NCBI RefSeq assembly: GCF_013394165.1
Contig: NZ_CP041330.1
Span: 992,001 to 1,056,000, forward strand
Direction: 5' to 3'
Origin: Pseudoalteromonas sp. Scap06
GTDB taxonomy: Bacteria > Pseudomonadota > Gammaproteobacteria > Enterobacterales > Alteromonadaceae
DNA length: 64,000 nucleotides
The translations under genes were made by a program, and so were the position numbers. This document shows positions 764 to 12,799 of the stretch, one piece after another. The notes under the pieces were generated by a model that was given only the letters and a program-made list of their open reading frames with translations, was not told the origin of the DNA and searched no databases. The stretch's first letter is position 1. Each line of letters starts with the position of its first letter.

Positions 764-845
764 ATTAAACGGCAAACTATGCGAAAGCATAGGACGCAAA
801 GCTCCCAGTCTAAGGCAATCGCTACGATCGTGGGGTTACATTAAC
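764..845 (+). ncRNA. c-di-GMP-I riboswitch (GEMM-I) upstream of motY
   Basis: The sequence carries the hallmark GEMM-I pattern: ACGGCAAAC, a perfect six-pair stem CTATGC/GCATAG closed by a GAAA tetraloop (776-791), then GGACGCAAAGC, GTCTAAGG, a short second hairpin and the closing GGGGTTAC (833-840). These are the conserved blocks of the c-di-GMP-I aptamer, including the GNRA tetraloop that docks in its receptor and the unpaired G before CAAAC that contacts the ligand in the known structure. It lies in the 320-nt gap between flhA and motY, about 100 nt before the motY start, so it would sit in the leader of the motY-lafK-fliEFGHIJ operon. The expression platform is not obvious and the on/off sense cannot be read. 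Confidence 0.93.
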
Positions 846-1833: not shown

Positions 1834-3147
1834 ATGAGTCAAAGATACCTTTTATGGATCAGTGAACAACAGCCAACGTCTGAAATTCAGCAGGTTGTAT
1901 TTGCCGAAAACTTTAAGTTTCTGCATACAAACTCCATCAGCGATGCGGTTAGTCACTGCCTTACCAGTAAGCCAGAGCTTGTGTTTGTTGATGCAGATAC
2001 TCAACAGCTCGAACTGGTTGAATTAGTAAAATTACTGCGTAAGACATGCCCCACTTCGCAAATTGTGACGTTAGTCGATTCTTCACAAAGTGAAATTGCT
2101 TCAAAAACAATTAATGCCGGTGGCGCAGTTGATTATTTATTAAAACCTTTCTTTGCAGAACAGCTTAAAAAAACAATCAGAAACACTGATTCAATGAAGC
2201 ATGGGTTTGAAGATTTAATCGCTGCTTCAACTAAGTCACAGCAAGTACTTCGTTTGGCTAATCGCGCAGCTCAAACCGCCGCAGGGGTGTTGATCACCGG
2301 CGAATCGGGAACAGGTAAAGAGAAGTTAGCGCACTTTATTCATAAAGCTTCAGAGCGTAGAGATAAGCCATTTATTGCGGTTAACTGTGCCGCTATTCCT
2401 GAAAATATGCTTGAAGCCATGTTATTTGGTTTTAATAAAGGCGCGTTTACCGGCGCGGTGAATGCTCAGCCAGGTAAATTTGAGCTGGCCAATGGCGGTA
2501 CTATTTTACTTGATGAAATTACTGAGCTGCCATTGGAACTTCAAGCTAAATTACTGCGCGTATTACAAGAGCGAGAAGTTGAAAGACTCGGCAGTCATCA
2601 AAAAATAAGTTTAGACATTCGCATTATTGCCGCCTCTAACCGCGTATTGCGTGAACAAGTTGAGCAAGGCGCTTTTCGTGAAGACTTATTTTATCGATTA
2701 GATGTATTACCGCTTAGTTGGCCTGCACTTCGGGATCGTATTGATGACATCATCCCATTGGCACATCACTTTATAAAAAAATACGGCAGCTCTGAATTCC
2801 ACATTAGCAAGCAAGCCGAAGATGTGATGCTTTGTTACAACTGGCCGGGCAATGTACGAGAAATTGAAAACGTAATCCAACGAGCTTTAGTGATGGCCAG
2901 AGGCGTTGAAATTCAGGTTGAAGATTTAAATTTACCAGCATGCTCACCAGTGGCAGTCGATTTCTGTGCTTCTCAGTTAAAAGAGAATAAAAAGCAGGCG
3001 GAGTTTGATTATATATACAGTTTATTGAGTCGATTTAAAGGGCATCGCACCCAAACTGCACAGGCGCTTGGCGTAACTACCCGAGCATTAAGATACAAAA
3101 TTGCCGCTATGCGTGAATGCGGTATTGATATTGATGCAATTGCATAA
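1834..3147 (+). CDS. lafK: LafK-like sigma-54-dependent flagellar activator
   Basis: The 437 residues hold a receiver-like domain (1-115), an AAA+ sigma-54 activator domain with Walker A GESGTGKE (156-163), the sigma-54 loop GAFTGA (203-208) and Walker B ILLDE (224-228), and a Fis-type HTH near the end (HRTQTAQALGVTTRALRYKI). The receiver keeps Asp53 and Lys104 but the usual N-terminal acidic pair is absent (LLWISEQQ), so phosphorylation is doubtful, as in the FlrA/FleQ/LafK group. LafK switches on lateral flagellar promoters with RpoN. The start is supported by AAAGGAA upstream. The gene sits between motY and fliE. The Leu-Phe-Arg-Ser motif that FleQ uses for c-di-GMP before its Walker A is not visible (GFEDLIA here). 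Confidence 0.88.
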   Translation: MSQRYLLWISEQQPTSEIQQVVFAENFKFLHTNSISDAVSHCLTSKPELVFVDADTQQLELVELVKLLRKTCPTSQIVTLVDSSQSEIASKTINAGGAVDYLLKPFFAEQLKKTIRNTDSMKHGFEDLIAASTKSQQVLRLANRAAQTAAGVLITGESGTGKEKLAHFIHKASERRDKPFIAVNCAAIPENMLEAMLFGFNKGAFTGAVNAQPGKFELANGGTILLDEITELPLELQAKLLRVLQEREVERLGSHQKISLDIRIIAASNRVLREQVEQGAFREDLFYRLDVLPLSWPALRDRIDDIIPLAHHFIKKYGSSEFHISKQAEDVMLCYNWPGNVREIENVIQRALVMARGVEIQVEDLNLPACSPVAVDFCASQLKENKKQAEFDYIYSLLSRFKGHRTQTAQALGVTTRALRYKIAAMRECGIDIDAIA

Positions 3148-3164: not shown

Positions 3165-3488
3165 ATGTCGCCAATTGAAAGTCAACAAATGATGCTGGGC
3201 AAAATGATGGACATGCAAAAAATTGCAGGTCCAGAGAGTATAGAGCCGGCTGCTATCAGTAATCAAAATGTAAATATTAGTGAAGATTTTAAGCATGTTA
3301 TTCGCTCTATCAACGCCCAACAAAATATTGCCGGTGAGATGGTTAAAGCCGTTGATACTGGTGAAAGTGAAGATGTGGTAGGCGCAATGATCGCTAGTCA
3401 AAAAGCGGGGCTTAGTTTTTCTATGCTGATGGAAATGCGCAATAAAGTGCTCAATGGCATTGATGATGTCATGCGCATGTCACTGTAG
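3165..3488 (+). CDS. fliE: Flagellar hook-basal body protein FliE (lateral)
   Basis: A 107-residue protein of the FliE family, which joins the MS ring to the proximal rod. The family signature lies in the second half: an amphipathic helix around NISEDFKHVIRSINAQQNIA, then the C-terminal VVGAMIASQKAGLSFSMLMEMRNKVL, which resembles the rod-type helix of FliE/FlgB proteins. The start has AAGGAAAAAAAGA directly upstream. It lies 17 nt after lafK and 8 nt before fliF, so all are cotranscribed. Length is normal for the family. Confidence 0.92.
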   Translation: MSPIESQQMMLGKMMDMQKIAGPESIEPAAISNQNVNISEDFKHVIRSINAQQNIAGEMVKAVDTGESEDVVGAMIASQKAGLSFSMLMEMRNKVLNGIDDVMRMSL

Positions 3489-3496
3489 AGGCTGAT

Positions 3497-5224
3497 ATGA
3501 AAGGAGAATTAGCAAAAGTACCTGAGCAAAATGAGAGTAACCTAAAAGAAAGAGTGGTTAATCTCTCAAACAAATTAAACTTCGGCAACTCAGGTGACAG
3601 AAGTGTTGCAACTATTGCATTGTTAGCCACCTTAGTGGCGGCGACCATAGTCCTTATTTTATGGACCTCGGCTAAAAACTACGTACCGCTTTACGGTAAT
3701 CAAGAAAGCTATGATAAAGCCAATATTTTAGAAATTTTAGATAAAGAACAAATCACGTTCCGCATTGATACCGACAGCGGTAATATTTTAGTGCCACAAG
3801 AAAAACTGGCTGATGCGCGAATCACGCTTGCGGCTAGAGGAATAAAAGCCTCTATGCCTGAGGGTATTGAGAATATTAGCGACAAAGTGTCTATGGGCAC
3901 TAGTCAATTTATCGAATCTATGCAATACCAGCATGCCTTAGAAGGTGAGTTGGCACGCACCATTATTAACATGCAAGGCATACGTAATGCGCGCGTGCAC
4001 TTGGCAGTCCCCAAGCGTAGCTTGTTTGTTGGTCGTACAGAGCAAAAAACCGCAGCGTCTGTGATGGTTGATTTAGCGCCAGGGCATGAGCTTAAACCAG
4101 AGCAAGTGGAAGCCATTATTGCACTGATTATTGGCAGTGTGCCTGGGCTTGATTCTCGTTCTGTGTCGGTGGTGGATCAGCGTGGTAAATTACTCAGCGG
4201 CGACTTATTTGATACCACCCCAGTAGGCAAAGAAACCGATAAAAAGCTCGCCTTTATTGAAAAAGTTGAGCGCAATATAGAGCAACGCGCCTCTATAATG
4301 TTGTTGCCAATTTTGGGTGAAGGTAATTTTAGAATTCAGGTTTCCAGTGATGTTGATTTTAGCGTGGTAGAAGAAACACGTGAAATGGTTGATCCACAAA
4401 ATGTATTAACCCAAGAGTTTATTAAATCAGATAGCACCTTAGATCAACTGGCGGCGGGCATTCCTGGCTCTTTAGCTAATGAGCCACCTGTGCCTAATGA
4501 ACAAGCTGAAGATGAAAACAACGAGCGTACTTCACAACGAAGTGAGAGTAAGCGACAGTTTGAAAATGGTCGCTCAGTGACTCACACCCAATTTGAAGTA
4601 GGCCGTATTAAAAACATGAGCTTATCAGTACTTATTAATGAGCAAGTAGCTGGAACAGCTGATGGCTGGAGCGAAGCAAAGCTCGCTTCATTAGGTGAAA
4701 TGGTAAAAAAAGCCACGGGGTTTAACGACGCACGCGGCGACCAATTTAACATCACTAGCTTTGCCTTTGTAGAGCAAAAGATTTTAGCACCGGGTGAAGG
4801 CCTTGAGTGGTGGCAAATGCCCGAGCTTAAAGAGTATGCTCGTTATATTGTGGGTACTTTAATTAGTTTATTACTGATTTTATTTGGTGTGCGTCCTTTA
4901 GTTAATCACTTGATAAAAGGTAAAAGTAGCGAAGCAAACAACGCCATGGCAACCGCTGATAATGAAGTTAAATCAGCCTCTGCAACAGAAAGACAAAGCA
5001 GTCCGCTTGATGACGCCATTAATGCTAAATCGCAAATAGAAAACTTAACCGCCAAAGAAGGCGAAAGCGAACATCAAAATATGTCGTTACCGCAAATAGG
5101 CAATGACTTTGAAGAACAAATAGCGCACATGCAGTTACTTGCTAATAAAGAAACCGAGCGTGTCACGTCGGTAATAAAATATTGGGTAGAACAAGGAGTT
5201 GAAATTGAATCAAGAAAAGCTTGA
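3497..5224 (+). CDS. fliF: Flagellar MS-ring protein FliF (lateral)
   Basis: FliF assembles the MS ring, the membrane foundation of the motor. The 575 residues show an N-terminal TM helix (IALLATLVAATIVLILW), ring-building motifs (NYVPLYGNQESYDKANILEIL; FIESMQYQHALEGELARTI; RNARVHLAVPKRSLFV), a variable linker, and a second TM segment (YARYIVGTLISLLLILFGV) before a cytoplasmic tail whose last ~40 residues should bind FliG. GAGG precedes the ATG. The 3' end overlaps the fliG reading frame by about 20 nt, which suggests translational coupling of ring and rotor proteins. Confidence 0.95.
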   Translation: MKGELAKVPEQNESNLKERVVNLSNKLNFGNSGDRSVATIALLATLVAATIVLILWTSAKNYVPLYGNQESYDKANILEILDKEQITFRIDTDSGNILVPQEKLADARITLAARGIKASMPEGIENISDKVSMGTSQFIESMQYQHALEGELARTIINMQGIRNARVHLAVPKRSLFVGRTEQKTAASVMVDLAPGHELKPEQVEAIIALIIGSVPGLDSRSVSVVDQRGKLLSGDLFDTTPVGKETDKKLAFIEKVERNIEQRASIMLLPILGEGNFRIQVSSDVDFSVVEETREMVDPQNVLTQEFIKSDSTLDQLAAGIPGSLANEPPVPNEQAEDENNERTSQRSESKRQFENGRSVTHTQFEVGRIKNMSLSVLINEQVAGTADGWSEAKLASLGEMVKKATGFNDARGDQFNITSFAFVEQKILAPGEGLEWWQMPELKEYARYIVGTLISLLLILFGVRPLVNHLIKGKSSEANNAMATADNEVKSASATERQSSPLDDAINAKSQIENLTAKEGESEHQNMSLPQIGNDFEEQIAHMQLLANKETERVTSVIKYWVEQGVEIESRKA

Positions 5225-6224
5225 TAAAGGCTCACAATTACCGGCGTTAGATCGCGCCGCTATTTTATTGCTAAGCATGGGCGAAGAAAATGCCGCCAGT
5301 GTTATTCGTAAATTAGGCCGCCGTGAAGTACAGGCTATTTCTGAGCGCATGGCTAAAATTTCAAATGTTACTCAACAGGATGTTGCAGGCACCTTGAGTG
5401 AATTTTTTGATTGTTACCGCAATGAAAGTGGTGTCAATGGCGCGTCGCGTGTGTATTTAGAGCGAGCACTTGATAAAGCCGTCGGCCGTAAGCTTGCCAA
5501 AACTATGCTTGATGATATTTATGGTGGTGCAATGAATGACGATTTACGTCGTTTAGAGTGGATCCCGCCAGAGCTTATAGTACGCTTTTTAGATCAGGAA
5601 CATGTGCAAATGCAGGCGCTGTTTTTGGCCTTTTTACCCCCAGAGCAAGCCTCAGCCATTATTGTACTGTTTCCAGAATCGAAGCATGATGATTTACTGT
5701 ACCGTATTGCCAGCCTTCGTGAAGTGAGCGAACACGTTATTGATGATGTGCGTTTAACGCTTGAATCGTGTATTGAATTTGTTGGCCGCCAAGTAGGTGC
5801 ACAAGTGAATGGTGTCGATAAAGCGGTAGAAATTATGAATCGTTACAACGGTAATAAGAGCCAAATTATCGAACTCATGAAAAAACATAACACTAACGTA
5901 GCTGATGAAATACAAGAGAAAATGTACGACTTTGATGGCTTAATTAAGCAAACAGACGAGACACTAACCTTGTTGCTTAATGACATTCCAGATGAGTTAT
6001 GGACGATGTCGTTAAAGGGTGTAAACAGTGAGTTTTTAGCGCGTGTTTTAGGTGCATTACCTAAACGTTTAGCGCAGGTGTACCAACAACAAATTGATGG
6101 TTTAAGCGCGCAACCACTGAGCAAAGTGATTGCCGCCAGAAAAGAAATTATGTCGATAGTAAGAGACATGAGCAAACAAGGTGATATTGAATATCGCTTA
6201 TTTGAAGAAGAGACCGCAGGCTAA
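5205..6224 (+). CDS. fliG: Flagellar rotor switch protein FliG (lateral)
   Basis: FliG is the rotor protein that meets the stator and sets torque and switching. The ~339 residues match the FliG N, middle and C domains: AAILLLSMGEENAASVIRKL at the start, RLEWIPPELIVRFLDQEHVQ in the middle, and a C domain ending IMSIVRDMSKQGDIEYR. The start is likely TTG at 5205, six nt after AAGGAG (5193-5198); TTG 5199 is too close to that site. The gene overlaps fliF. By eye, the torque helix reads LPKRLAQVYQQQID, so the positions equivalent to Asp288/Asp289 of Escherichia coli FliG appear to be glutamines while the Arg281 equivalent is kept. Confidence 0.93.
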   Translation: MNQEKLDKGSQLPALDRAAILLLSMGEENAASVIRKLGRREVQAISERMAKISNVTQQDVAGTLSEFFDCYRNESGVNGASRVYLERALDKAVGRKLAKTMLDDIYGGAMNDDLRRLEWIPPELIVRFLDQEHVQMQALFLAFLPPEQASAIIVLFPESKHDDLLYRIASLREVSEHVIDDVRLTLESCIEFVGRQVGAQVNGVDKAVEIMNRYNGNKSQIIELMKKHNTNVADEIQEKMYDFDGLIKQTDETLTLLLNDIPDELWTMSLKGVNSEFLARVLGALPKRLAQVYQQQIDGLSAQPLSKVIAARKEIMSIVRDMSKQGDIEYRLFEEETAG

Positions 6225-6226
6225 CT

Positions 6227-6859
6227 ATGAGTCAAGCATTTAGGTTTCCCACTTTAAATAAAAATGAGCAACATCAAACGCTGCAAGAGCGTTTAGATGC
6301 TGCTCAGCGTGTTGGTTTACAGCAGGGCTTTGAAAAAGGTCTTGCGCAGGGGGCAACCGATAAGCAAAGTGAGTTAGAGCAACAAATGGAGCAACAAATA
6401 GAGCTACGGGTTGCTGAACGTCTTGAAGCGCAAAAAACACAGCTTATTGAACGTTTTAACACTTTATTTGATAAAGCTAATAATGAGCTACTTAACTTTA
6501 ATGATGAGTTTAAACAAGACCTTGCCTTAATGATAAGTACCTTGGCTGAGCACGTTATTGACTGCGAGCTAAAAGTACGCCCCGAAATACGCGCGCAGCT
6601 TATTGAAAAAGCCATTAACTTGCTTAGCAATCGCGATGTAGTAACAAAAATTATGTTCTCAGGGGCTGATCGTCACTTTTTCGATGATGCACGTTTAGCT
6701 GAGTTTTCGGTGCCGACTTACTTTGATGAGGCTCTGATCAGTGGAGACGTTGAACTGGTGGCAGAGCAACAAACACATCGATTTTCTTTTTCAGAGCGAT
6801 TACAAAGCCTTTTGGATGAAGTGATACCTGAAATTTTAAAAGCGCAACCGCATGACTAA
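6227..6859 (+). CDS. fliH: Flagellar assembly protein FliH (lateral)
   Basis: FliH is the stator-like regulator of the export ATPase FliI. The 210 residues show the FliH layout: a low-complexity N-terminal part with a glycine-spaced segment (GLQQGFEKGLAQGA), a long Gln/Glu-rich coiled-coil region (residues ~45-75), and a conserved C-terminal domain (DLALMISTLAEHVIDCELKV...IEKAI). It starts two nt after fliG and overlaps the start of fliI by eight nt, the usual fliG-H-I arrangement. Primary sequence in this family is weakly conserved, so the call rests on position as well as composition. Confidence 0.88.
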   Translation: MSQAFRFPTLNKNEQHQTLQERLDAAQRVGLQQGFEKGLAQGATDKQSELEQQMEQQIELRVAERLEAQKTQLIERFNTLFDKANNELLNFNDEFKQDLALMISTLAEHVIDCELKVRPEIRAQLIEKAINLLSNRDVVTKIMFSGADRHFFDDARLAEFSVPTYFDEALISGDVELVAEQQTHRFSFSERLQSLLDEVIPEILKAQPHD

Positions 6860-8201
6860 CCCACTTCATACTTGCTTAAAGTCTGCGCTGAAAGCGCTAA
6901 CCCCGCCTGAATTAGTTAAAAGTTATGGCCGCTTAACGCGAGTAAATGGTTTAACGCTTACCGCTACCGGTGGGCAATTTGCTATGGGTGAAAAATACCA
7001 AGTAGAAAGTGTTGATGGTCACTGGTATGACGCTGAAGTCGTAGGCTTTAATCAAGATGAAGCCTATTTAATGCCCCTGAAAAAAATACAAAATTTATAT
7101 TCAGGTGGACGCGTTAGGCCAGTTATAAAAAACACTCATGTGGCTATTTCTGAAAAGTTATTAGGGCGTGTGCTCGATGCGCAAATGCAGCCGATTGATA
7201 ACTTAGGCCCACTTGAACAAGACAGCACAAAAAACGCCAGTAAATTGGGTAACGATTATTCTTTAACGCCGCTGGAGCGCAAAGGCGTTATCGAGCCGTT
7301 AGATGTGGGTATTCGCGCCATTAATAGCTTATTTAGTGTGGGAAAAGGCCAGCGTTTAGGGCTATTTGCAGGTTCGGGTGTAGGTAAAAGTAAGTTGCTT
7401 GGCATGATGACCCGCTTTACCTCTGCCGATGTGGTTATTGTAAGCCTTGTCGGTGAGCGTGGTTGGGAGGTAAAAGATTTTATTGAGCAAAGCCTTGGTA
7501 AAGAAGGCTTAAAAAAAGCCATTGTAATAGCATCGCCAGCAGACGATTCTCCCTTATTGCGTATTAAAGCGGCCGAGCTTAGCCATAAATTGGCGGCCTA
7601 TTTTAGAGATAAAAATTCAAATGTATTGCTGTTGATGGACTCATTAACCCGTTATGCGCAAGCACAGCGAGAAATTGGTTTATCGGTAGGTGAGCTGCCT
7701 GCATCCAAAGGATACCCGCCATCGGTATTTAGTAAATTGACTCAACTGGTCGAGAGTTCGGGTAATAGTGAAAAAAGCAAAGGCAGCATGACCGCCATTT
7801 ATACAGTATTAGCTGAAGGCGATGATCAACAAGATCCAATAGCCGATAACGCCCGAGCAATTCTTGATGGCCATATAGTATTGGATCGCACCTTAGCAGA
7901 AAAGGGGCACTATCCGGCCATTAATATTGGTTCATCGATTAGCCGAGTAATGCCAAATATAGTAAGTGATGAGCAGCTAAGCTTTTGTTATAAATTGAAA
8001 AAGCTTTATAGCCGCTATATGCAAGTGCATGAGCTTATTCCTTTAGGGGCGTATCAAGCAGGTAAAGATCCGGAACTCGATAGTGCGGTAAATTTGTACC
8101 CACAAATCGAATCATTTCTATGCCAAGGGTTGAACGAACAAGTGGATTTTTCACAGTCAATAACTCAATTAAATGCAGTGATGGGTAAACTGAATGCTTA
8201 A
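6852..8201 (+). CDS. fliI: Flagellum-specific export ATPase FliI (lateral)
   Basis: FliI is a F1-beta-like ATPase that energises delivery of export substrates. The 449 residues carry Walker A GLFAGSGVGKS, the catalytic-loop region VSLVGERGWEVKDFIE, Walker B VLLLMDSLTRYAQAQREI, and the family block GELPASKGYPPSVFSKL. Length matches FliI (~440-460). The start overlaps fliH and the end overlaps fliJ, so translation is coupled. FliI versus a virulence-type III ATPase is settled by the flagellar neighbours. Confidence 0.96.
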   Translation: MTNPLHTCLKSALKALTPPELVKSYGRLTRVNGLTLTATGGQFAMGEKYQVESVDGHWYDAEVVGFNQDEAYLMPLKKIQNLYSGGRVRPVIKNTHVAISEKLLGRVLDAQMQPIDNLGPLEQDSTKNASKLGNDYSLTPLERKGVIEPLDVGIRAINSLFSVGKGQRLGLFAGSGVGKSKLLGMMTRFTSADVVIVSLVGERGWEVKDFIEQSLGKEGLKKAIVIASPADDSPLLRIKAAELSHKLAAYFRDKNSNVLLLMDSLTRYAQAQREIGLSVGELPASKGYPPSVFSKLTQLVESSGNSEKSKGSMTAIYTVLAEGDDQQDPIADNARAILDGHIVLDRTLAEKGHYPAINIGSSISRVMPNIVSDEQLSFCYKLKKLYSRYMQVHELIPLGAYQAGKDPELDSAVNLYPQIESFLCQGLNEQVDFSQSITQLNAVMGKLNA

Positions 8202-8610
8202 TAAATTTTTAGGATTACAACAACAAAAATTAGATAAAATGCTGGCCGAGCAAACTCAGTTGCAACAAAGAAGTAACCTAGAGCAGCAACGCTTATCGCA
8301 GCTTCAGCAGCACATAAACAGTATGGATAAAAACCAGCAAATGAGCTCGGCGCTGAGCTTACAAAATTTATCAGGGATGAAGCGTATTTTGTCTGGCTTA
8401 TCGACGCAGCAACAAGCGCGTATTGATGATTCACAGCAAGATGAATTACGTCAGCAGCAAGCTTGTTTTAAGCAAATGAGCTTCACCAAAGGCATAGAAG
8501 GGATTGTGAGTAATAGGCATCGTGCTGATCAAAATAAAGCGCAGCAGCAAGAGGCTAAAACGTTAGACGAAATGATCAGCCAAGCACATAGTCGTACTCT
8601 GCATAAATAA
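8194..8610 (+). CDS. fliJ: Flagellar FliJ-like coiled-coil protein (lateral)
   Basis: A 138-residue, Gln-rich, almost wholly helical protein with no hydrophobic segment, predicted as a two-stranded coiled coil. FliJ is the central-stalk analogue of the export ATPase and a chaperone-escort factor. Assignment rests on size, composition and position right after fliI (8-nt overlap). It is the last gene of the flagellar operon; no convincing terminator lies between it and hrpB 48 nt downstream, so some read-through is possible. Confidence 0.8.
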   Translation: MLNKFLGLQQQKLDKMLAEQTQLQQRSNLEQQRLSQLQQHINSMDKNQQMSSALSLQNLSGMKRILSGLSTQQQARIDDSQQDELRQQQACFKQMSFTKGIEGIVSNRHRADQNKAQQQEAKTLDEMISQAHSRTLHK

Positions 8611-8658: not shown

Positions 8659-11085
8659 GTGCTGCCGGTTCAAGAAATATATACTTCACTCATTGATGCT
8701 TTAAAAGCCAACCCAATCACCTTACTGCAAGCGCCGCCTGGTGCTGGTAAATCAACATGGTTGCCATTACAGCTTATGCGCGATGGGCATTATAAGCACA
8801 TCGTCATGTTAGAGCCGCGGCGCTTGGCAGCAAGAAATATTGCTAACTATTTAGCGCACTGCCAAAACGAAACGCTAGGGCAAAGTGTCGGTTTACGGGT
8901 GCGAGGTGAAAGTAAAGTCAGCACACAAACTCGCCTTGAAATAGTTACCGAAGGCATGCTTACGCGCATGTTACAAAATGATCCTGAGCTTAGTGATGTT
9001 GATTTACTTATTTTTGATGAGTTTCATGAGCGTTCCATCGCAGCAGATACCGCACTGGCTTTTGCTTTAGAATCGCAAGCGGCACTGCGTGAAGATTTAA
9101 CCATTATGTTGATGTCGGCCACCCTTGATAGCGAACGCTACACTGGGTTTTTTAATTGCCCAGTAATTCAATCAAACGGGCGAAGTTACCCCATTGACGA
9201 AATATATTGCCCAATAAAAGATGAAAGCCGCTGGCTTGATGCTATTCCACCAATAATAAAACAAGCACTCAATGAGCAAACAGGCAGTGCGCTGGTATTT
9301 TTACCTGGCCAGCGTGAAATACTGCGAGTGCAGCAAGCGTTGATCGACTTGCCCAGTAATTGTATTGTTGCCACATTATTTGGCGAACAAGATAAAGCCA
9401 ATCAACAAGCAGCAATTGCACCAGCGCCTCAAGGGATGAGAAAAGTAGTATTAACGACCAATGTTGCCGAAACAAGTTTAACCATTGAAGGTATTAGAAT
9501 TGTTGTTGATAGCGGCAAGCGCCGTGCAGCCAGCTTTAATTTAAAAACCGGTGTCACTGAGCTCACTACGCAAAGTATATCGCGTTCATCGGCAGTACAA
9601 CGCGCAGGGCGTGCAGGACGAATAGAACCAGGGGTTGTGTATCGGTTAGGTTCCAAACAAACTTTTGAAAGACGAAACAGCCACGATAACCCTGATATTC
9701 TTACCTCAGATATTAGCCAACTGATGCTTGAGGCGAAGCAGTGGGGCGCAAGTATTAGTGAACTCACCTTACTTGACCCGCCGAGTGAGCAACAATGCAG
9801 CCAAGCTACTAATTTATTATCTATGCTTGAAGCCATAGATAGTAACGGTAAGCTCACCACGCTGGGTAGTAAAATGTTGGGCTTTGGTGCCGATATTCGC
9901 TTAGCGCATATGTTATTAAAAGCGCAAATGTTAGAACCACAGTTAAGTGGGATTTATCGCTTAGCTATTTATTTAGTGGCCTTACTAGAAAGCCGAGTTA
10001 GCACTGCCAATGAGCTCAACCTAGCACTGCATAGTCAACAACAACGACCACATCCGGTGTTTAAGCAGCAATTAAATTATTGGTTAAAACGCTTAAAATT
10101 TACCGACAGTCGTACAGATTTAAACACTGAACATTTAAGCTTATTAGTGTCGCTTGCCTATCCAGATCGGATTGCTAAAAAACGCGGCAATGGCTACTTA
10201 TTAGCAAATGGTGCAGGGGCTGAACTAAACCCTGATTATTGGCATAAAGACGAATATATAGCTATTGCCAGTATGGGCGGGCATAAAGGCGGGCGAGTTT
10301 TTGCAGCCACGGCGCTAAATCCATTAGCACTTAAAGAGTATTTACCGCATTTATTCACTGAGTTGACTCGCTGCGAGTTTGATGAAAAAGCCGCTCGGTT
10401 TATTCATCAAGATGAAGTAAAACTTGGGGAAATTACCCTTAGTAGCCAACCAAGTAAACATAAGCTTGATAAAACAGAGCGGGCCAAGGCATGGCTTAGT
10501 TTGTTTGCCAAACAGGGCTTTTCACTGTTTAACGAGCAAAAAGAAAGTGAGCAACTACTTATTAGAATGTGCCTAGCCAGCAAATTGATGCCAGAACAGT
10601 TTCCTATTATTAATCAGCAGCAGCTCATTGAAACAGCAGGTGATTGGTTAGGGGTATACCTTGAAGATATTAAAACCCTTGAGCAACTTAAAAAGTTTAA
10701 TTATTTTGAGGCACTACAAAACAGTTTTAATTGGCAACAGCAAAGCGAGCTAAAATCTTTACTCCCACTGCGACTAACAGTACCAAGTGGCTCTAACATA
10801 AAAATTGAATACCAACTTGATGGCCCCGCCAAGCTCAGTGTGCGCATGCAAGAAGTATATGGTTTAACCAGTACACCTATGTTAGCTAACGGTAAATTAG
10901 CATTGCTAATGGAGTTGTTGTCTCCAGGCAAGCGTTCACTACAGTTAACCCAAGACTTAGCACATTTTTGGGATAGTAGTTACCGCGAGGTACAAAAAGA
11001 GATGAAAGGGCGCTACCCCAAGCACTTTTGGCCAGACGACCCTGCCAATAGCGTTGCCACCAATAGAGTAAAAAGCAGAATGTGA
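8659..11085 (+). CDS. hrpB: ATP-dependent RNA helicase HrpB
   Basis: An 808-residue DEAH-box-type helicase of the HrpB family. Motifs in order: Walker A APPGAGKST (residues ~25-33), LEPRRLAARN (Ia), TEGMLTRML, DEFHERS (motif II; HrpB proteins use DEFH), SATLD (III), TTNVAETSLTI (V) and QRAGRAGR (VI), followed by the HrpB C-terminal domain. Start is GTG at 8659 with AGGGT upstream. The cellular role of HrpB is poorly defined; it is a common single gene in gammaproteobacteria and marks the edge of the flagellar cluster here. Confidence 0.95.
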   Translation: MLPVQEIYTSLIDALKANPITLLQAPPGAGKSTWLPLQLMRDGHYKHIVMLEPRRLAARNIANYLAHCQNETLGQSVGLRVRGESKVSTQTRLEIVTEGMLTRMLQNDPELSDVDLLIFDEFHERSIAADTALAFALESQAALREDLTIMLMSATLDSERYTGFFNCPVIQSNGRSYPIDEIYCPIKDESRWLDAIPPIIKQALNEQTGSALVFLPGQREILRVQQALIDLPSNCIVATLFGEQDKANQQAAIAPAPQGMRKVVLTTNVAETSLTIEGIRIVVDSGKRRAASFNLKTGVTELTTQSISRSSAVQRAGRAGRIEPGVVYRLGSKQTFERRNSHDNPDILTSDISQLMLEAKQWGASISELTLLDPPSEQQCSQATNLLSMLEAIDSNGKLTTLGSKMLGFGADIRLAHMLLKAQMLEPQLSGIYRLAIYLVALLESRVSTANELNLALHSQQQRPHPVFKQQLNYWLKRLKFTDSRTDLNTEHLSLLVSLAYPDRIAKKRGNGYLLANGAGAELNPDYWHKDEYIAIASMGGHKGGRVFAATALNPLALKEYLPHLFTELTRCEFDEKAARFIHQDEVKLGEITLSSQPSKHKLDKTERAKAWLSLFAKQGFSLFNEQKESEQLLIRMCLASKLMPEQFPIINQQQLIETAGDWLGVYLEDIKTLEQLKKFNYFEALQNSFNWQQQSELKSLLPLRLTVPSGSNIKIEYQLDGPAKLSVRMQEVYGLTSTPMLANGKLALLMELLSPGKRSLQLTQDLAHFWDSSYREVQKEMKGRYPKHFWPDDPANSVATNRVKSRM

Positions 11086-11304
11086 TCACGCTTCCTTAAT
11101 GTCGCTTAATGTTAAACGTTGACCATACAAATAACGAACATTTTTGGGCGTTTTACAAGCACTAAACTATTATTACTTTAATGCTGATATTTTACTGGGT
11201 AAGACTTATTACCCTAGTGTACATATGAGCCGTAAGGTAGCGAGCGTTTGTAACTAATTGAAGATGCAGCTAACAATCTAAAAGTGATAATAGAGGGAAC
11301 ATGC

Positions 11305-11856
11305 ATGAAAGGCGTTATCTTTAGAGGGCTTGAGGCACTGGTTATTGAAAAATGTGGCATGGCAGCATGGGACGACTTACTTGAAAAAAATGCACCGGAG
11401 GGTCGTGTTTATATTTCTGCAGAAAGTTATCCAGATGAAGAAATAGTTGGTTTAGCACAAGATGTAGCAACTGCACTTTCTATGTCTATGCCAGAGGTAT
11501 TAAAGGCCTTTGGAGAGTATTTATTTTCTCACTTAAAGGCACGTCATCCAAGCATTGTTGCTAACTTTAATTGCTTTGCTGATCTCATTATTGGTATTGA
11601 TAAAGTAATTCATGTTGAAGTCGCTAAGCTTTATCATGAGCCTAATTTACCTGAAATTGACGCCCAAATTATTGAAGACGGGCTTATTTTAATGCGTTAC
11701 AACTCTAAGCGGCAGCTTTGTATGTGCGCCGAAGGGCTTATTTTTGGTGCTGCGTCTCATTATGGAGTTGATGTTAAACTTAACCATGCTCAGTGTATGC
11801 ATGATGGGTTTGATTCGTGTTTAATTGAAATAAAATATGAGACTCCCCATGGCTGA
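11305..11856 (+). CDS. H-NOX heme nitric oxide sensor
   Basis: A 183-residue stand-alone heme-NO/oxygen-binding protein. It has the proximal histidine in IDKVIHVEVAKLY (His103 from the ATG used) and the heme-propionate motif Tyr-x-Ser-x-Arg as YNSKR (Tyr132, Ser134, Arg136). Bacterial H-NOX proteins bind NO at ferrous heme and change the autophosphorylation of a partner kinase. I chose ATG 11305, six nt after GAGGGA; this gives the usual MKG start, while the upstream GTG 11284 adds seven unrelated residues. The downstream kinase overlaps the 3' end, which strongly supports a sensor-kinase pair such as that studied in Pseudoalteromonas atlantica, Shewanella and Vibrio. It probably feeds c-di-GMP or biofilm control, an inference from those systems. 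Confidence 0.93.
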   Translation: MKGVIFRGLEALVIEKCGMAAWDDLLEKNAPEGRVYISAESYPDEEIVGLAQDVATALSMSMPEVLKAFGEYLFSHLKARHPSIVANFNCFADLIIGIDKVIHVEVAKLYHEPNLPEIDAQIIEDGLILMRYNSKRQLCMCAEGLIFGAASHYGVDVKLNHAQCMHDGFDSCLIEIKYETPHG

Positions 11857-12799
11857 AGACGACTACAATTATAAAAAAGCGTATTTGCGCGAAAAATCAG
11901 CTAGAGATCAATTAGAAACCCTACTAGAAGACAAAACACGGGCATTGTTTATTGTTAATCAAGAGCTGGAAGAAAAGCTCGAAACGGTCAAAAACCAACA
12001 AATAACCTTAATGCAAAGTGAAAAAATGGCTACGCTAGGGACACTCTCTGCTGGCATGGCCCACGAAATAAATAACCCGCTTGCTTACATAACCAGTAAT
12101 GTAGAAAGTATAAAATTTATAAAGCCCGTGTTGGTTTCGCTAATGACGGCGGCTCAACAATTTGTAAATAAATCGATTTCAGTATCGCAGTTAGAGTCTA
12201 TTTTAGTTCAGCTCAATCAAGAGAACGATTTAAGCTTTATTGTGGATGATATTGATGACTTAGTTAATGATACCCAAGAGGGTTTAGAGCGTATCGCTCA
12301 TATTGTTAGTAACCTTGTCGACTTTGCAAGCCTAAAAGACAACGTAACTGCAATGGCAGATATTACAGAATCATTAAATGGCACGCTAAAGCTACTCGAA
12401 AACCAGCTGGGAACGTGTGCTATAGAGTTACACATTGAAAAGTTACCTCTAACACAGTGTAATATATCATCTATGAAACAAGTTTTTGTAAACTTATTAA
12501 TTAATGCCAAACACGCCTGCGACGACTTGCGCGATCAGCAAGGGAAAATAATAGTTAAGCTGTTTGCCGATAAAAACAATATTTACATAGAGGTGGCAGA
12601 TAACGGCTGTGGAATGGACGCTGATACACTTAAACAAATGTTCGATCCTTTCTTTACCACTAAACCCGTAGGCCAAGGCACTGGTATGGGAATGGCTATG
12701 GTTTATAACATACTCAAAGAGCACAATGGCACTATAGAGGTTGAAAGTGAAGTGGGTAAGGGGTCTTTAATACGTTGTGTAATAGCTATTACTACATAA
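11849..12799 (+). CDS. H-NOX-associated sensor histidine kinase
   Basis: A soluble histidine kinase without TM segments. An N-terminal coiled coil (residues ~10-55) leads to the H box [19 protein letters not shown] (His72 counted from ATG 11849), and the ATPase domain shows the N box [14 protein letters not shown]1 DNGCGMD, F box DPFFTTKP and G2 [11 protein letters not shown] 11837 is an equally possible start, twelve bases upstream; neither has a strong ribosome site, as expected for a gene coupled to H-NOX. Its activity should be set by the NO state of the H-NOX protein. No receiver domain or response regulator follows, so the phosphate acceptor is encoded elsewhere. Confidence 0.9.

Follow-up and report, generated by a model that had tools for sequence, protein, structure and literature searches.

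A c-di-GMP-I riboswitch aptamer lies in the probable 5′ leader of the lateral flagellar operon motY-lafK-fliEFGHIJ of Pseudoalteromonas sp. Scap06. We propose, with moderate confidence, that this leader is a translational OFF switch. The aptamer and its target operon are established by sequence, within a window of 64,000 nucleotides whose numbering is used below. The direction and the level of control are likely but unproven. Through this leader, c-di-GMP can probably shut off the lateral flagellar genes together with their master regulator, directly at the RNA level.

The window carries a full-length c-di-GMP-I aptamer

Searched with Rfam cmscan at gathering thresholds, the window gave a single match: the c-di-GMP-I (GEMM-I) family, RF01051, at 761–843 on the forward strand (score 71.2 bits, the gathering cut-off being 35; E 5.8e-12). 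The aptamer is full length, with model positions 1–87 of 87 covered, and the RNA belongs to a riboswitch class that is well known. The related family c-di-GMP-I-GGC (RF03167) is not the better fit, since only the RF01051 match was retained. In the host genome (4,132,063 bases in 2 contigs) no other c-di-GMP-I copy was found among the 150 of 297 first-look candidates that were scored.

A first-pass annotation of this DNA, made by eye from the letters, had placed a c-di-GMP-I riboswitch at 764–845. The aptamer itself stands, while its borders do not, the Rfam match being shifted by 2–3 bases. That annotation had proposed an Rfam covariance search as a check, and the search returned a strong c-di-GMP-I match rather than the lack of a significant GEMM-I match. 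The elements that it quoted from a nearly complete GEMM-I consensus are there: the aptamer contains the GNRA-capped P2 hairpin CTATGC-GAAA-GCATAG, a GGACGCAAAGC core at 792–802, and CTAAGG together with GGGGTTAC (832–839).

The aptamer precedes a lateral flagellar operon

From the end of the aptamer to the ATG of motY there are 97 nt on the same strand, where the first-pass annotation had noted 100 nt. The run of eight flagellar genes with a LafK-type activator that had been described after the aptamer is likewise confirmed by reading frames and family matches, all on the forward strand. It opens with a motY-type gene at 941–1813 (NF047620, E 3.6e-19, under the cut-off) and a lafK-type sigma-54 activator gene at 1834–3147, assigned by family match, gene order and the LafK tree described below. 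These are followed by fliE at 3165–3488 (TIGR00205), fliF at 3497–5224 (TIGR00206), fliG at 5199–6224 (TIGR00207, under the cut-off), fliH at 6227–6859 (family match under the cut-off), fliI at 6852–8201 (TIGR01026, above its cut-off) and fliJ at 8194–8610 (PF02050, E 6.9e-4, 20.3 bits, under the 28.4 cut-off). Farther downstream, an H-NOX gene (haem-NO-binding, PF07700) overlaps a histidine kinase gene at 11284–12799, and a single long frame at 8659–11085 separates this pair from fliJ. H-NOX/histidine kinase pairs are tied to c-di-GMP control in other bacteria.

No LafK model is among the 25 families listed for the activator, where the best match is FlbD at 347.6 bits, below its cut-off of 750. 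We use the name LafK because of the gene order, the LafK tree and the existence of a functional LafK homologue in Pseudoalteromonas sp. SM9913; this protein, A0915, is reported to be required both for swarming and for the majority of the lateral genes (PMC10304486).

Upstream of the aptamer, the 3′ end of flhA occupies 3–620 on the forward strand (TIGR01398, partial), with the remainder of the gene upstream of the window. The 20 kb 5′ of the window encode a flgJ-like rod-binding protein, flgK, a flgL-like flagellin-domain protein, three flagellins, fliD, fliS, fliK and fliL. They also encode a sigma-70-family factor, motA, motB, a PilZ-domain protein, fliM, fliN, fliR, flhB and flhA. The family search covered the frames of this stretch other than fliQ and the one expected for fliP, and two of those frames matched no family. 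The PilZ-domain gene sits directly 3′ of the lateral motAB (L210:13875-14324, equal to host C1:985875-986324), which is the place described for FilZ (PMC10304486). Another fliF is found elsewhere in the host genome, at C1:2440942-2442288, so the lateral cluster is one of two flagellar systems. With this second flagellar gene set and the order motY-lafK-fliEFGHIJ, the cluster has the features by which a lateral (LafK-type) system is recognized.

We infer that the operon has its promoter in the gap that separates flhA from the aptamer. A candidate sigma-70 promoter at 674–701 on the forward strand, picked by a consensus scan and by its conserved −10, consists of a −35 TTTGCA (674–679), a spacer of 16 nt and a −10 TATAGT (696–701). 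The motif TATA[AG]T occurs 59–77 nt 5′ of the aptamer in all ten leaders of the genus, with TTTGCA or TTGCTT at −35 distance from it. Unlike this −10, the sequence that separates it from the aptamer varies among the genus leaders. The scan itself found 2 sites where 2.5 are expected in shuffles, which puts the promoter match, taken by itself, at chance level. A transcription start downstream of 845 had been named beforehand as a result that would speak against a leader riboswitch; the best promoter candidate lies 5′ of the aptamer, with the same reservation that the candidate alone is no better than chance. The claim that the riboswitch belongs to the motY leader is supported by the Rfam score, by the −10 of the upstream candidate promoter being kept in 10/10 leaders, and by the conservation of the aptamer next to lafK across five groups of the family level (f1, f2, f6, f15 and f25).

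The aptamer accompanies lafK in many relatives

To survey the association, the same 108 genomes of the genus were searched for RF01051 and for LafK. LafK orthologues are present in ten of them, with at least 72% identity along almost the full protein; the matches that come next have about 50% or less. In each of these ten loci an Rfam-confirmed aptamer lies about 1 kb 5′ of lafK, before motY. RF01051 is present in 81 of the 108 genomes, as against ten with LafK, and the majority of its copies in the genus must therefore go with other genes. Fifteen of 20 non-laf c-di-GMP-I loci inspected in the genus (L002–L031) precede frames that look secreted, as judged by eye.

The linkage holds in a family sample of 395 genomes, where a LafK threshold of E < 1e-110 selected 29 genomes, the host among them, and the aptamer was present in 29/29. 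Two of these aptamers, in L127 and L128, do not reach the RF03167 cut-off, yet they obtain 68 bits from R1, a search model built from 25 laf-linked aptamers. An order sample of 394 genomes contained 42 with LafK above 400 bits, the host included. Beyond the host, the aptamer was found in 28 of 41 LafK genomes, 27 of them at Rfam thresholds. The remaining one, at L071, is weak (37.6 bits, E 7e-8) and was seen with R1 only, there being nothing at Rfam thresholds nor in an Rfam search at E 0.1. Twelve of the 41 lafK loci (L090 and L096–L106) gave no aptamer at Rfam gathering scores or with R1 at E ≤ 1, and five of the twelve also had no Rfam match up to E 0.1. One further locus (L095) runs into the end of its contig and is uninformative. 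In part of one family (e.g. L069, L078, L082) the aptamer stands directly before lafK, and motY does not lie between them. For L069 and its relatives, which form one genus of the order sample, the leader beside the start codon appears well conserved by eye.

A contig scan for named loci returned 80, of which eight have at least 52% identity. These come from Bowmanella, Aestuariibacter, Rheinheimera, Aeromonas, two Shewanella, one Alteromonadaceae strain and one metagenome bin, and the aptamer is present in 8/8. Three of the eight are new; the other five, L130, L131, L132, L133 and L135, repeat loci already counted (L109, L117, L120, L065 and L064, respectively, with equal coordinates). As a control we used more distant relatives, which we take for paralogues: 72 loci at 40–51% identity and 20 genus loci at 44–49%, with flanks of up to 3 kb / 1.5 kb that are shorter at contig ends. 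None of these 92 loci had an aptamer with R1 at E ≤ 1.

We then asked how the aptamer is distributed on a LafK tree of 83 rows (82 different), with L071 counted as aptamer-bearing. All 65 aptamer-bearing rows form one clade, set apart by a branch supported at 96/95, while the 12 aptamer-less rows form a group of their own (support 91/17) as do the 6 outgroup rows, in a tree for which the program warned of long branches meeting. A single gain at the base of the aptamer-bearing clade, or a single loss outside it, is enough to explain the distribution. With the association fixed across a large LafK clade, a single reporter assay would be informative for many bacteria, and the aptamer-less LafK group offers a natural comparison.

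Mutually exclusive helices suggest a translational OFF switch

The leader between the aptamer and motY could fold into alternative helices, all of them read on the forward strand. The 5′ strand of P1 (757–768; UAAG at 757–760 and UUAA at 765–768) is complementary to 841–848, within the P1 3′ strand UUAACUUAG (841–849) identified by leader comparison. The sequence UAGUGA at 847–852 may form the 5′ half of an anti-P1 helix with 887–892, which excludes P1. A putative switch element, GUAUUUCGCUA (882–892), with a UUYCGCU core, could pair either with 847–852 in this anti-P1 helix or with 931–938 in an anti-Shine-Dalgarno helix. The latter interval is the motY Shine-Dalgarno region, CGGAAUAU, which is complementary to the switch element. 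Since 847–848 are common to P1 and anti-P1, and 887–889 to anti-P1 and anti-Shine-Dalgarno, the outer two helices exclude the middle one. A transcription terminator was also considered as the platform and was set aside, there being no intrinsic terminator-like site at 560–1000 of the window.

We counted pairs in 13 leaders, drawn from the genus and from its neighbours, omitting L039, which is near-identical to L038. Anchored blocks were used because the MAFFT alignment misplaces the 3′ part of four leaders. In these counts, in which related sequences and anchors chosen on motifs favour the in-register state, P1 (UAAG:CUUA plus one pair) has 63 of 65 cells paired in register and fewer when slid; anti-P1 (847–852 with 887–892, seven pairs counted) has 80/91 in register against 28–60 when slid by 1–3; and anti-Shine-Dalgarno (882–889 with 931–938, seven pairs counted) has 83/91 against 27–50 when slid. 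The UAAG:CUUA core of P1 is invariant in all 13 leaders. Anti-P1 includes one double change from A-U to G-C, and the pair 884:936 is A-U, G-U, G-C or U-A depending on the leader, with one mismatch.

The UUYCGCU core occurs within 80 nt 3′ of the aptamer in 16 of 63 leaders, including 10/10 of the genus; as it was not found in the other 47, other lineages must use another platform. The best anti-Shine-Dalgarno duplex uses UUYCGCU in six of the ten leaders of the genus and neighbours where this is expected. In single sequences, helix strength was compared with dinucleotide shuffles. For anti-Shine-Dalgarno, p ≤ 0.05 was reached in 3 of 19 leaders (0.29 for the window); the same level was reached in 1 of 63 leaders for anti-P1 (window 0.24) and in 7 of 63 for P1 (window 0.45). 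Because these strengths are mostly not above shuffles, the mechanism rests on position and on limited covariation. When states were constrained without ligand, anti-P1 was the more stable in seven of nine leaders, by 0.1–9.3 kcal/mol. The window leader is one of the two exceptions, with P1 plus anti-Shine-Dalgarno more stable than anti-P1 by 1.5 kcal/mol.

The mutually exclusive helices supply the logic of a translational OFF switch. We infer a two-state device in which ligand binding would turn the operon off, acting on translation rather than on transcription of a message begun at the candidate promoter. At high c-di-GMP, the aptamer would close P1 (757–768 with 841–848). Closed P1 would free the switch element (882–889) to pair with the motY Shine-Dalgarno region (931–938). 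With the Shine-Dalgarno sequence sequestered, the operon would go untranslated, less LafK would be made and the lateral flagellar genes would be off. At low c-di-GMP, 847–852 would pair with 887–892, releasing the Shine-Dalgarno region so that translation could start. If the element does control the operon, the first-pass annotation reasoned, it would switch directly between surface motility and attachment, with a putative feedback through LafK.

The same riboswitch might instead be an ON switch, in which c-di-GMP opens the Shine-Dalgarno region and a rise of the signal leads to expression of the operon, for instance in the first phase of life on a surface. The unconstrained ligand-free ensemble does bury this region in the window (mean unpaired probability 0.01), and the corresponding mean is below 0.25 in 11 of the 13 leaders, so ligand could be needed for opening; closely related GEMM aptamers, moreover, are described as serving both ON and OFF switches (PMC9262584). 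However, with the conserved anti-P1 pairing, the Shine-Dalgarno region would be accessible in the ligand-free state, when P1 is open, and in SM9913 c-di-GMP is reported to oppose swarming via FilZ (PMC10304486). We therefore regard an ON switch as unlikely. Control might also fall on transcription, the AU-rich leader being a site of termination that is Rho-dependent or weakly intrinsic, and a short GC hairpin followed by GUUU can be seen by eye before the Shine-Dalgarno sequence in four genus leaders (L038–L041). The lack of a terminator-like site in the interval of the window scanned above, and the conserved complementarity to the Shine-Dalgarno region, lead us to consider this quite improbable. 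That the aptamer is a relic or bystander no longer controlling the operon is hard to reconcile with its occurrence at the same place in 36/36 family loci examined while the flanking leader diverges, and we give this idea very little credence. The translational OFF switch is thus the reading that we prefer.

A position that may set ligand specificity

The base of the window that we take as equivalent to G20 of the Vc2 aptamer, by our own count along the Vc2 sequence, is G771. Among 63 laf-linked aptamers, the position is G in 59 and A in four: L065 (3784–3873, reverse strand), L107 (426–523), L108 (428–518) and L134 (1922–2008). The same G-to-A change is seen in three non-laf aptamers of the genus (L007, L010 and L012). 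Position 20 is described as a selectivity factor (PMC9262584), and a class I GEMM RNA with G20A is reported to bind 3′,3′-cGAMP (PMC6274999). An A at this position may therefore point to sensing of 3′,3′-cGAMP, or to dual sensing, which we consider possible.

A broader scenario would join these observations to the tree. In it, one ancestral RNA brake was gained once, became fixed on the lateral master operon through a LafK clade that includes Pseudoalteromonas-, Rheinheimera-, Bowmanella-, Aeromonas- and some Shewanella-type genomes, and was retuned towards 3′,3′-cGAMP in the few lineages with A (L065, L107, L108 and L134). We offer this tentatively and consider it doubtful as a whole. If it were true, different cyclic dinucleotides would gate swarming via the same leader.

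Comparison with known systems

Earlier work attributes the control of lateral flagella and swarming by c-di-GMP to proteins, FilZ and MotL among them (PMC10304486). If the leader works as we propose, c-di-GMP would act directly on the mRNA of the lateral master regulator and of the first structural genes, ahead of these protein effectors. Our search of open-access full texts found no report of a c-di-GMP riboswitch on lateral flagella; an earlier listing in supplements or in Rfam is possible. The word "riboswitch" is absent from the main text of the SM9913 paper (PMC10304486). For Aeromonas hydrophila, the relevant passage of a review names fimbrial and chitinase genes, not lateral flagella (PMC6366702). 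A Vibrio parahaemolyticus paper lists c-di-GMP-II and purine riboswitches with genes other than lafK, and the relevant passage of an A. salmonicida genome paper counts 11 riboswitches with their targets unnamed. In passages of several other open-access texts, riboswitches appear as reporters, in general mention or in cited titles. Apparently, then, this is a known kind of RNA with a new target.

Within its own clan, the window aptamer can be set beside RF03167, c-di-GMP-I-GGC. Six laf-linked aptamers are closer to that family than to RF01051: it is the best family upstream of motY-lafK in L081, L084, L115 and L129, and the best but under its cut-off in L127 and L128, whereas the window aptamer belongs to RF01051. 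The Vc1 and Vc2 riboswitches of Vibrio cholerae, described for gbpA and tfoX, are of the same class as the window element but have other target genes (PMC6366702).

The FilZ and PilZ proteins of lateral clusters resemble the window riboswitch in attaching c-di-GMP control to the lateral cluster. They are protein effectors that act after translation, whereas the window element is RNA (PMC10304486). In SM9913, the reported route from c-di-GMP to swarming runs via FilZ, a PilZ protein whose gene lies next to motAB (PMC10304486). Because a PilZ gene occupies the same place in the cluster of the window, c-di-GMP may act on this lateral system twice, once through RNA and once through protein.

A close parallel is Cd1 of Clostridioides difficile, a class I c-di-GMP aptamer that, like the one described here, leads an early flagellar operon, that of flgB (PMC6366702, PMC9262584). 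Control by Cd1 is described as OFF, the same direction that we propose for the window (PMC6366702, PMC9262584). Cd1 is described as stopping transcription, whereas no terminator was seen at 560–1000 of the window and we propose an action on translation. The two also differ in target, which in the window is a second, lateral-type system with its own sigma-54 activator.
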